Shown piece after piece: positions 13,466-18,510 of a stretch of 64,000 nucleotides of DNA. The DNA lies in assembly GCA_947626605.1 (NCBI GenBank), contig CANQSV010000001.1, forward strand, positions 45,018 through 109,017, written 5' to 3'. Numbering within the stretch: position 1 is the first letter of the stretch; each line of letters begins with the position of its first letter. This DNA is from an uncultured Clostridia bacterium. GTDB lineage: Bacteria > Bacillota > Clostridia > TANB77 > CAG-508. Made by a program: the position numbers and the translations under genes. The notes under the pieces were generated by a model. The model ran no database searches. It was given only the letters and a program-made list of their open reading frames with translations, and was not told the origin of the DNA.

Positions 13466-13495
13466 AAGGGAGATTTCTCTCCCTTGTTTTTCTAA
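13466..13495. terminator. Intrinsic terminator of the adhesin gene
   Basis: AAACAAGGGAGA-TTTC-TCTCCCTTGTTTT palindrome with A/T tails. Confidence 0.8.
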
Positions 13496-16400
13496 AATTT
13501 AACTTCTCTATACTTAAATATTCCTATTGCTCCTACTGCTAAAAATCCTACAATCACTATTCCAGCTACTGCTATATTTCCTGGTCCTGTTTGTGGCAAC
13601 TTCTCTTTAGATGTTGTATTGTCCTTCTTCTGCTCTTTTGCATTCTCAACTTTTATTATCATTGTTGTTTTATCTAATTCCACATTCTTGTATCTTTCTT
13701 TTATCTTAACAACTTTCTTTCCGTCTTTTTCTTTCAAAGTAAATTCTACCTTAATTATATCTCCTGATTTTTTATATCCCTTTGGGGCTTCTTTTTCTGT
13801 TATCTCTAATACATATGTACCATCTTTTAAATCTAATTCTTTTAATATTATTTGTCCTATTGAATTAGTTGTATTTGTTTTCTTAAGAATCTCTTTATAC
13901 TTTTTATTATTATCCTTATCTTTGCCCTCCTCTTTCTTTATTACCAATTCAAATTTCGCACCTTTTAATTTATTAGTTGTTCCTTTTTCGTATTTATTCA
14001 CCTTAATAACAAACTCATCTTCAGCCATTGGTGGTATATAAGTATTTATTATTTCAAATCCTTCAATTCTTGTTTCATATCCTGCTATAGCTTCCTCTTC
14101 TACAGAATATTCAATCTTGTTACCTTCTTTATCATACATTTCTAATTGTTTAAATGTAGTTTTCCATTTATCATTAGCTGTTATATCCTTTGTTCCTATT
14201 ACTTCTCCATTTGCTAATAAGCTTACAGTTACCTTACTTGGTCTTAATTTTTCATATCCACTATCTTCCCATTTTTTAGTTACATCAATATCTATAACTT
14301 CTTCACCAGCTACCATTCCATGCCTATTTATTAGGTTATATCCATGTATTTCTTTTTCATAGCCTTCTACTTCCTCTTCGTCAATCGTATATAGTATTTC
14401 TGTTCCTTCTTTATACTTATCTAAATCTTTAAATTTATATTCCCAATTATCAGATTCAGTTACTTTTTTAGTTTGAACTACTTTACCATCTGCCAACAAT
14501 TTTACAATTATACTCTCAGGTCTCATTCCTTCTTGATTATTCAAATCTTCCCATGTTTTCTTTCCTTCAATGCTTATCTTGTTTGGTTTATGTTCATTCG
14601 TTATATCATATCCTTGTATTGACTTTTCATATTCTGGAATAGTTTCTTCATCAATTGTATATTCTATTATCTCACCATCTCTATATTTGTCTAGGTCTGT
14701 AAATTTGTATTTCCACTCATCCTTTTCTGTTACTATTTTCGAATCAATCTCTATTCCATCAGCTAGTAGTTTAACAGTTATTTCTTTTGGTCTTATTCCA
14801 TCCTGATTGTTTTCATCTTTCCATATTTTTGTTCCTTTAATTTCTATTTTTTCTGGTGTCTGTGTATTTGTATGTGTATGTGTGTTTGTTATATTATAGC
14901 CATCTATAGTTGTTTCATAGTCTGTTACTGAATCTTCTTTAATAGTATAATCTATTTTTTCTCCATTTTTATACTTTGGTAAGTTTTTGAATTCATATGC
15001 CCAATCATCATCTTTTGTAACATCTTTATGTGCAACTTCTTCATCATTTGCAAATAGTCTTACTGTTATTTTCTCAGGTCTTATTCCATCTTGATTGTTA
15101 TTATCTTCCCATGTTTTTGTTCCTTTAATTTCTATTTTTTCTGGTACGTATGTATTTGTAATTTTATATTTTACTGCATACTCATCAGCCTTGTTATCAT
15201 CGTTTAGTACTTCTATTTTAGATACATAATTTTCATTAACATTAACCTCTTTTATTGTATATACTATCTCTTCTTCATCTGGCTTTTCCTCACTATCTCT
15301 ATACTTTGGAAGATTTATTATTGTACAAGACCATTCTTTTAATTGCTCTTCATCAGTTGTTGAATAAACTATATTATTCTCATTCGTTTTATCTTCCTTT
15401 ATTTCTACACATTTTCCCTGTTCTTTTAATTCTATAACACCTTTTTTCACTTCATCAGCAAATAATTCAAATTCAACTTTTTCTGGTCTTTTATCCTTTT
15501 CATTATTATCATTCCAAATTTTTTCAACATATACTTGAGTAGTTTCTTCCTTTTTATTTTTGCTTAAATCAGCAGAAGAAATGCCAGAATTAATACCATG
15601 AATAGTATTGGCTTCAACTTTTTTTGCTATTACAGAACCATCTAAATTTCCATTAATATATATATTCATATTAGGAGCTAAAATAGTTCCTATAATCTCT
15701 TTTGCTTCTAACTTAACTTCTTTAGAATTTTCTGGGTAATAAAAATTCCATATGATATTTTTAGCAAGCGGATTCCAATCTGCTTTATTTCCTTCAATTT
15801 GTATTATTGGTGTTACAGGAGAACCACTAGTAAAGGCATTAGTACAATCAACATTTATAATTATTTTCTTGTTTGCATCTAATCCTTTTATTGAAAAATT
15901 ATCACAAATACTTGAATTGAAGAAATTATCTGGATTGACTGTAATAATTGTCATATCTTGTTCAGCAGGAATAGTGTATTCAAAAGTATGACTATCATTA
16001 TTTTCATTTCTACAACTAACTTCTATAGCTTCTCCCTTTTTCTTTAATGATTCAGATAATTGTTTTAGCTTTTCAAATTCTGCATCAAAATTTATAAATT
16101 CATATTCAACTCCTATTACATTATAAGCATTATATGTCTTACCCTGCTCATTACACTGTGTATTTTCATGAGATTTTCCATTTATTTTACACTCATTTGG
16201 ATTGTGATCATTATCTATTATATTTTTATTATCTTTAGTATAAATATATAAATTAGCTTTTCCATTTTCATTACCACAATCATATGTACCTTTGTATATA
16301 TTGTCACAAGTAAGTTCTGCTTTTGTTCTTTTAGCTTGCCAACAATATTTCCCATCACTTTCATATTTTCCTCTAATATATGAATTTAAATTAACACAAT

Positions 16401-16698
16401 CCAAGTTTTGTTTATAAAAGCCATCCCATTGAGTCTCATAATTACCAAAACTGCCTTTTTTTAAATCACCACCTATTGCAATATCTGCTGTACATTCTGA
16501 TAAACTTGCATCTTCTTTAGTAAACACGCAAAAATCTCCTGCTACACCTAATATATTTCCTCTATATGATTTATAGTATTCCTGTTTTGGGGCTTTTTCC
16601 TCTGAAGCATTAATAAAAAGCCCCAAAGAAAGCACTATTAATAATATAAAAGTTATACTAGCAATTAAACGTTTTCTATTTATATTTGCACTTTTCAT
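13492..16698 (-). CDS. LPXTG-type surface protein: choice-of-anchor-A-like N-region, five Cna-B domains, SpaA-like domain
   Basis: Signal segment; NILGVAGDFCVFTK; EIIGTILAPNMNIYINGNLDGSVIAKKVEANT; repeats IKGTKTWEDNNNQDGIRPEKITVRL...; KLPQTG sortase motif. Confidence 0.9.
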   Translation of the reverse strand: MKSANINRKRLIASITFILLIVLSLGLFINASEEKAPKQEYYKSYRGNILGVAGDFCVFTKEDASLSECTADIAIGGDLKKGSFGNYETQWDGFYKQNLDCVNLNSYIRGKYESDGKYCWQAKRTKAELTCDNIYKGTYDCGNENGKANLYIYTKDNKNIIDNDHNPNECKINGKSHENTQCNEQGKTYNAYNVIGVEYEFINFDAEFEKLKQLSESLKKKGEAIEVSCRNENNDSHTFEYTIPAEQDMTIITVNPDNFFNSSICDNFSIKGLDANKKIIINVDCTNAFTSGSPVTPIIQIEGNKADWNPLAKNIIWNFYYPENSKEVKLEAKEIIGTILAPNMNIYINGNLDGSVIAKKVEANTIHGINSGISSADLSKNKKEETTQVYVEKIWNDNNEKDKRPEKVEFELFADEVKKGVIELKEQGKCVEIKEDKTNENNIVYSTTDEEQLKEWSCTIINLPKYRDSEEKPDEEEIVYTIKEVNVNENYVSKIEVLNDDNKADEYAVKYKITNTYVPEKIEIKGTKTWEDNNNQDGIRPEKITVRLFANDEEVAHKDVTKDDDWAYEFKNLPKYKNGEKIDYTIKEDSVTDYETTIDGYNITNTHTHTNTQTPEKIEIKGTKIWKDENNQDGIRPKEITVKLLADGIEIDSKIVTEKDEWKYKFTDLDKYRDGEIIEYTIDEETIPEYEKSIQGYDITNEHKPNKISIEGKKTWEDLNNQEGMRPESIIVKLLADGKVVQTKKVTESDNWEYKFKDLDKYKEGTEILYTIDEEEVEGYEKEIHGYNLINRHGMVAGEEVIDIDVTKKWEDSGYEKLRPSKVTVSLLANGEVIGTKDITANDKWKTTFKQLEMYDKEGNKIEYSVEEEAIAGYETRIEGFEIINTYIPPMAEDEFVIKVNKYEKGTTNKLKGAKFELVIKKEEGKDKDNNKKYKEILKKTNTTNSIGQIILKELDLKDGTYVLEITEKEAPKGYKKSGDIIKVEFTLKEKDGKKVVKIKERYKNVELDKTTMIIKVENAKEQKKDNTTSKEKLPQTGPGNIAVAGIVIVGFLAVGAIGIFKYREVKF

Positions 16699-16924: not shown

Positions 16925-17230
16925 CTAGAACTCCCTCTTACTATATTTTAATTTTGTTGCCATTCCTCCTCTTATGTGTCTTTCTGCTTTATTCTCATCT
17001 AAAACCTTTCTAACTTCTTTCGCAAGCTTTGGATTAATCTTCAATAATCTTTCCGACACATCCTTGTGTACTGTCGACTTAGAAATCCCAAATAGTTTTG
17101 CTGTTCCTCTCACTGTATCTTGTGTATCTATTATATGATGTGCCAATTCTATTGCACGTTCTTCTATTGATAACTTTCCTGCTAAAGCTCTGCTTGTTAC
17201 AGTTAGGTTATGCGTAATCATTCCTTTCAT
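16925..17230 (-). CDS. spoIIID: Sporulation transcriptional regulator SpoIIID
   Basis: RGTAKLFGISKSTVHKDVSERL...RHIRGGMATKLKY; ORF track start is 17248. Confidence 0.93.
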   Translation of the reverse strand: MKGMITHNLTVTSRALAGKLSIEERAIELAHHIIDTQDTVRGTAKLFGISKSTVHKDVSERLLKINPKLAKEVRKVLDENKAERHIRGGMATKLKYSKREF

Positions 17231-17383
17231 ACAGCAACCCCCACACAAATACTTTTATTTAAATGTATTCATGTGAGGGTTGTATTAGAACATTCTGATT
17301 TTTTATTTTGATCTTGTAATTTATATTCAATTAACTTTAAAGAACTTTCGTTTTTTTGCATTATTGTAATTAAGTAAAATAAT

Positions 17384-17412
17384 ATAGAGCCCTCTAAATT
17401 AGAGAGCTCTAT
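17384..17412. other. Hairpin without T-run just beyond the stop of the DGR-target-like gene
   Basis: ATAGAGCCCTCTAA-a-TTAGAGAGCTCTAT, one internal mismatch. Confidence 0.6.
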
Positions 17413-17444
17413 CGTTCAGGTGCAGTATCAGTGGGCAGTGCTAC

Positions 17445-18368
17445 TCAAAGCACAAACCAACCAACGCTGTCGTTAGCGTGATAATCATAATAGTCGCCGA
17501 GATTAAGATTGGCGAGCGGACCGTAGCTACCACTGAGATTGCAGACACCACCAGCCAGCCAGAAACCACCGGCCTTTTCGTCTTTTGCCAGAATTTTGCG
17601 GGTATTTGCTAAATCGCATTTCCCCACAATCCTTCTTGAACCTGTTGGCTCAAAGTCATTTTTTGCATCTGCTGAATCCCAATAATGTCCCAACTCTTTT
17701 GAGTTAGTACATACTGCAAACCAAGCGTCCCTCTCAGACCAGCCTTCATTAATCAGTCCAGTAATGAGCCATCCCAAAAACAGAATATACTCATCCTTTG
17801 TACCAAGTCGAAGACCGTTTTCCTTTGCGAGTTCTTCCCACTCATTATAGGAATAACCCACAGCAGGTTTGAAGCCAGGAACGAACTGGAGCTTGCCATT
17901 ATCCATTGACGGATCATTGGCAAACACTTCAAATCCTTTGACCGATTTACCGATAGCCTTTTTAAGATTATCAATAAATGCCACTTCTACATCGTTTACA
18001 GGTTTGTGCTTCAGCAGTTCCGCATAAAAAGGACCAGAGCCAGGGATCTTAATAGTCTCAAACTCTGTTGTAGCTTTTGTTTCATCTGCCATAAGCTGTT
18101 CGATGCACTCCTGAGCCTCAGCTTCTTCAAGATAAGAGTTCAGAATTGCCTGAACATTTTTCTTGACCGAAGATTCCATCGTAAGGACAAGTTTTCCTGC
18201 CTCATCCTTATGGACGAAAAAGACTTCTCCGCTGTGTGTGTGCTGAGTTTCTCCCTGCTTTGCAGCAGAAATCTCTACAGCAACCTTTGCTGCTATCCGG
18301 TTTCCCAGATACTCTTCCAGAACCTTCTGGATTACCCGAACCTCGTTCAGAGCCGTTGTTACATTCAT
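17445..18368 (-). CDS. Putative DGR-type variable protein with C-type-lectin-like C-terminus
   Basis: C-terminus GGFWLAGGVCNLSGSYGPLANLNLGDYYDYHANDSVGWFVL has almost only NNY codons; local GC higher than neighbours. Confidence 0.55.
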   Translation of the reverse strand: MNVTTALNEVRVIQKVLEEYLGNRIAAKVAVEISAAKQGETQHTHSGEVFFVHKDEAGKLVLTMESSVKKNVQAILNSYLEEAEAQECIEQLMADETKATTEFETIKIPGSGPFYAELLKHKPVNDVEVAFIDNLKKAIGKSVKGFEVFANDPSMDNGKLQFVPGFKPAVGYSYNEWEELAKENGLRLGTKDEYILFLGWLITGLINEGWSERDAWFAVCTNSKELGHYWDSADAKNDFEPTGSRRIVGKCDLANTRKILAKDEKAGGFWLAGGVCNLSGSYGPLANLNLGDYYDYHANDSVGWFVL

Positions 18369-18510
18369 GATAGTTTCCTCCTTAAAATTTTATTAAAATT
18401 TTGGGTTGAACGAACAGTGCATTCTTTCGAATACAACTATATTATACCACATTATGTAAATTTTTACAACTTACTATTTGGTTTAGTAATTTTTTATTTT
18501 ACATATAATT

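Follow-up and report, generated by a model that had tools for sequence, protein, structure and literature searches.

An orphan target gene of a diversity-generating retroelement, with a conserved post-VR tag, in a gut Clostridia order

The gene at positions 17445-18368 (minus strand) of the window, i.e. of the whole 64,000-nucleotide stretch of Clostridia DNA analysed here, is very probably (about 0.9) the target, or variable protein (VP) gene, of a diversity-generating retroelement (DGR), and it is an orphan in a genome where no RT, Avd or template repeat (TR) was found. DGRs are natural systems which randomise part of a binding protein. The open reading frame is intact and encodes 307 amino acids from ATG to TGA. 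The initial annotation had regarded its 3' end as a DGR-type variable end, and this reading is now supported by VR copies whose differences fall almost exclusively on the first and second codon positions, and by relatives located in intact VP-avd-RT-TR cassettes with adenine-specific mismatches. It probably encodes a binding protein of the C-type-lectin-like (FGE-sulfatase) type which resides in the cytosol and has about 19 randomised residues, both the binding and the location being what we infer. As far as the libraries searched extend, the protein family, the tag that follows its VR, and the wide occurrence of tagged targets without an RT in a single order of gut Clostridia are new.

Codon use and variation at the 3' end

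The final 41 codons end in C or T with few exceptions, as had been claimed: 36 of the 41 are NNY compared to 127 of the 266 codons elsewhere in the gene (Fisher p 1e-6), and the exceptions with a third base A or G are TGG, CTG, CCG, TGG and GTG. In the VR core (17466..17546, minus strand), where the copies vary at the first two codon positions and conserve the third, the NNY codons number 26 of 27 (binomial p 7e-8). A second 27-codon run with 26 NNY codons was not found among the 18,378 stretches tested, which covered all long frames of the window. The core is followed by an IMH-like segment, GTTGGTTGGTTTGTG (17451..17465, minus strand), invariant in eight related VRs. The gene is also less AT-rich than its neighbours, again as initially annotated, with a GC content of 44.5 % against 28 % for the window and a maximum of 34.8 % among the 924-base slices elsewhere in it.

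The genome assembly (G000; 1.67 Mb in 62 contigs, 98 % complete) carries two copies of the gene, on contigs C1 and C10, the further copy (L096:7779-8600) having a different neighbourhood. Between the two copies 27 of the 81 VR positions differ (13, 12 and 2 at codon positions 1, 2 and 3, respectively), compared to 27 of 318 positions of the body in the same alignment (9, 9 and 9) and only three in the 90 bases 3' of the VR. This distribution indicates that the VR was rewritten after the two copies diverged. Six closely related VRs, from the window genome, G058, G059 and G227, differed from one another at pairwise rates of 0.442, 0.432 and 0.062 for codon positions 1, 2 and 3, while for the body of the same six relatives they were 0.138, 0.125 and 0.225. 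Variable columns at positions 1 and 2 relative to position 3 were distributed 38:5 in the VR and 60:52 in the body (p 3.5e-5). The invariant columns of the six VRs were depleted of A (p 0.004). Codons free of A (GGT, CCG, CTC, GCC, CTT) were almost never altered, and nearly all A-type codons were variable, with the C or T at the third position retained codon by codon. As both the third bases and the A-free codons hold, the pattern is that of template copying with adenine mutation, unlike that of ordinary selection.

That the hypervariable NNY-rich 3' end arose without a DGR, by gene conversion of paralogues or by ordinary diversifying selection, would fit a body that is also fast between the two copies (0.139, 0.122 and 0.113 by codon position) and two hot spots lying outside the VR, but it is most improbable, as selection does not freeze third bases while positions 1 and 2 saturate, every VR codon keeps its own C or T although the two are synonymous at the third position, and relatives of the protein sit inside intact DGR cassettes. 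The two hot spots, SERDAWF and HYWDSADAKND, are short and lie 5' of the VR (window 17650-17750, residues 209-240). They show strong divergence between copies and species, without the third-base pattern of a DGR, and are not template-like; possibly they form part of the lining of the binding site to which the VR belongs.

Cassettes in relatives and the protein fold

The comparison set consisted of 388 genomes of the same bacterial order, in 64 of which the family profile matched relatives of the window protein. Several family members adjoin a DGR RT, and in four same-order relatives family members or their FGE-type kin are part of cassettes with RT and TR. Homologues of the window protein occur in the complete cassettes L157, L158 and L160. 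The gene order of L157 (G346) is VP, avd, RT and TR; its avd matches PF22296 (bAvd, 3.7e-18) and NF033474 (DivGenRetAVD, 1.8e-21), and the closest PDB entry to its RT is 8ub7 (E 1.8e-46). In 55-nt windows, the TR/VR mismatches at template A and at other template bases were 7 and 0 for L157, 9 and 0 and 11 and 1 for the two targets of L158, 9 and 1 for L160, and 16 and 1 for L161, the target of which is of the FGE-sulfatase type. Translation of the L157 template gives GNYNNNGNNYPLADVN, the unmutated form of the motif in the window gene. Since the TR behind the window VR was never seen, adenine specificity in the clade of the window gene is presumed from the relatives with a TR, from which all the direct evidence comes.

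In the mechanism we propose, an Avd/RT complex copied the TR into cDNA, mutating it at template adenines, and the cDNA then replaced the 3' end of the gene, the GTTGGTTGGTTTGTG segment serving as an anchor. The GTAGCACTGNNCACTG tag and the hairpin 3' of the VR may also anchor the replacement. In the lineage of the window genome this rewriting took place once its two gene copies had diverged.

Searches of Pfam, PHROG, NCBIfam and PDB gave no convincing family for the window protein, and PF03781 (FGE-sulfatase) gave no direct match above the gathering score; the relation is visible by profile-profile comparison alone. With hhalign, the profile of the same-order FGE-sulfatase (PF03781) DGR proteins was matched over the DLANT...GG...PLA core with an E value of 4.6e-9 and a probability of 96 %, which supports a putative C-type-lectin (FGE-sulfatase) fold and agrees with the C-type-lectin-like body suggested in the initial annotation. 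These SUMF1-like proteins thus resemble the window protein in distant homology, and they share with it the same post-VR tag and the RT clade, but the window protein has diverged too far for recognition by Pfam. An AlphaFold prediction from six sequences (pLDDT 39.6) provided no usable model. Inspection of the N-terminus by eye revealed no hydrophobic stretch resembling a signal peptide. A 65-aa ORF in another genome (L013, G023:C25) aligns with the window protein over no more than its N-terminal 55 residues, with 75 % identity, and thus the N-terminal domain can exist without the variable part.

Post-VR tag, transcription unit and spread between genera

Immediately 3' of the stop codon stands the post-VR tag GTAGCACTGCCCACTG (17429..17444, minus strand), which is common to DGR targets across the order. 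The corresponding 16-nt pattern GTAGCACTGNNCACTG is found 3' of the VRs of two protein types, namely many members of the window family and FGE-type targets. It occurs in 51 of the 388 genomes, and the reversed control had no matches in any of them. An avd or RT gene lies within about 1.5 kb of about 20 of the 30 tag loci examined, and the TRs of the cassettes are without the tag. In viral contigs the tag had eleven matches; the loci examined there showed neither RT nor Avd homologues, and the matches may be due to chance given the size of the collection. A hairpin in which the VR end pairs with the tag (GTGCT/AGCAC) was considered and is present in 25 of 48 sites, but no compensatory retention was observed and it is not claimed. 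A search of Rfam gave no meaningful match. With a tag shared lineage-wide, DGR target genes can be found without an RT nearby.

Further downstream, a 13-bp hairpin followed by a T-rich tract (17384..17412, minus strand; z -5.2) is nearly invariant across genera and could be a terminator and/or a DGR target hairpin. In the nearest clade the noncoding stretch of tag and hairpin has a mean identity of 0.91, compared to 0.80 for the coding body, and G020 retains this stretch despite a protein only about 40 % identical. A sigma-A-like promoter, TTGTAA-17-TATAAT (18441..18469, minus strand), is conserved in most copies in differing contexts, and a conserved ribosome binding site, AAGGAGG (18377..18383, minus strand), was read from the sequence. 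With its own promoter, ribosome binding site and hairpin 3' of the stop codon, the window gene forms a complete transcription unit.

The arrangement resembles the DGR of Bordetella phage BPP-1 (mtd, avd, brt, TR), in which the VR also closes the gene for a protein of the C-type-lectin type, as the window protein probably is, and which requires a hairpin just 3' of the VR (PMC3240598). Homologous RT and Avd are present in relatives of the window gene, and the conserved VR-end segment with a hairpin behind it is common to both systems (PMC3240598). Unlike mtd, the window gene is chromosomal and not carried by a phage, and its genome lacks detectable RT, Avd and TR. Its post-VR element is conserved in sequence, and its hairpin lies about 33 bases past the stop codon with a 3-nt loop instead of a GRNA tetraloop. 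By analogy, the tag may guide homing, as a sequence-conserved element at the place where BPP-1 has its hairpin.

The window gene adjoins the host gene spoIIID (16925..17248, minus strand; PF12116, 2.8e-38), which is also the neighbour of DGR target genes in two other genera. At L231:1535-5208 (G060:C27) tandem FGE-type targets, each followed by a truncated avd and with no RT, are adjoined by spoIIID and a second spoIIID fragment; this locus is a decayed, duplicated DGR at the same core-gene neighbour. An AAA_14/DUF4143-like ATPase gene located beside both copies of the window gene is probably a coincidence, as it is absent next to relatives. A prophage or phage origin was rejected, since the gene is surrounded by host genes and searches of viral contigs, phages and plasmids found no relative. 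Also in the window, at 13492-16698 (minus strand) and near ssb/rpsR/rpsF, is a gene for a large surface protein that combines Cna-B-like repeats with a sortase-type LPQTG signal.

The third-position divergence from G281 is 0.24 for the window gene and 0.53 for spoIIID, and thus the nearest copies crossed between genera after the species had separated. In G024, a family member beside spoIIID has a synonymous divergence approximately equal to that of spoIIID, as expected for vertical descent. The GC content is 0.38-0.48 in all family members measured, so that high GC marks the family and not a single transfer. The suggestion that the gene was probably acquired is upheld in part, by a synonymous divergence from other genera of about half that of spoIIID, but not by the GC content, which is common to the whole family.

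The missing donor

The orphan state deduced from the window extends to the genome. No DGR RT was detected in the window or the assembly with PF00078 and two DGR RT queries, no Avd (PF22296) was detected in the assembly, and no TR for the window VR in the window or the rest of the assembly. The only weak RT-like match (G000:C12, E 0.004) sits among sigF/spoIID-type genes and is not an RT. With a VR near the expected template as a query, no matching TR was found in the 388 genomes, the matches being VRs and the TR of the G346 cassette; recovery of the latter, from a more distant cassette, indicates that the search can detect TRs. Viral contig, phage and plasmid collections contained no matching TR or VP. 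The complete DGR of G020 (RT, TR and pilin-like target) was considered as the donor and rejected, as its TR encodes a different protein end. No RT was matched in 14 of the 51 tag-bearing genomes. With at least 14 genomes having tagged targets and no detectable RT, it becomes testable whether such genes are relics or continue to be diversified by a distant donor.

It is about an even chance that the gene was orphaned by loss, i.e. that the avd-RT-TR part decayed or was deleted and the two targets are leftovers, frozen at their last VR and retained for binding; we slightly favour this over a donor acting in trans. Decayed cassettes are common: G060 and G281 have two FGE-type VPs and truncated avd genes with no RT, beside spoIIID like the window gene, and RT genes with several stop codons are present in G020, G032 and G289. 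RT-less targets have been reported in Treponema denticola, where VR-bearing target genes occur in genomes without RT and TR (PMC4891356), although in that species sister strains have a known matching TR, whereas for the window gene it was found in no genome searched. Loss would have to be recent and repeated, because the VR rewriting postdates the split of the copies, which is itself younger than the spread between genera (6 of 83 4-fold sites differ between the two copies, compared to 13-19 of 79-97 between genomes), and a TR for this type of VR is missing from all 388 genomes.

Somewhat less probable, but still a serious contender, is a donor in trans, with RT and TR on DNA outside the assembly (a plasmid, a phage or a chromosomal gap) acting on scattered tagged targets. 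This would account for the RT-less tagged genomes described above, which have up to six tag sites per genome. Comparison across genera shows the VR positions other than adenines to be better conserved than the body, as if refreshed by a shared template (5 of 27 third positions variable in the VR, 52 of 106 in the body; p 0.004), but this conservation would also be explained if the homing segment is under selection or if 3' ends spread horizontally. Remote DGR targets are already known (PMC7517822), and trans action has been documented in Thiohalocapsa (PMC10907252). Targets in cyanobacteria and Thiohalocapsa are likewise scattered away from the cassette and share 3' features, but in most of those cases the genome that carries the targets also has a matching RT and TR (PMC7517822, PMC10907252). 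The empty searches of viral contig, phage and plasmid collections argue against such a donor, as does the good recovery of other DGRs by assembly and binning in the order (207 of the 388 genomes). The wider proposal that an unassembled donor with RT, Avd and TR, shared between genera, diversifies tagged targets in trans across the order, with GTAGCACTGNNCACTG as the address label, is in our view unlikely.

Two observations concern other DGR loci and targets of the order. G036 (99 % complete) has about ten family copies, several of them as adjacent pairs (L089, L090, L091, L092, L033, L034), and six tag sites with no DGR RT; G281 has four tag sites. A second DGR clade with 375-aa RTs comprises L081:5461-9245 and loci L127-L156. 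In L081 (G020) the target has a prepilin-like N-terminus and the TR lies between the RT and the target, and the targets of this clade end in the related post-VR sequence TAGCACTT.
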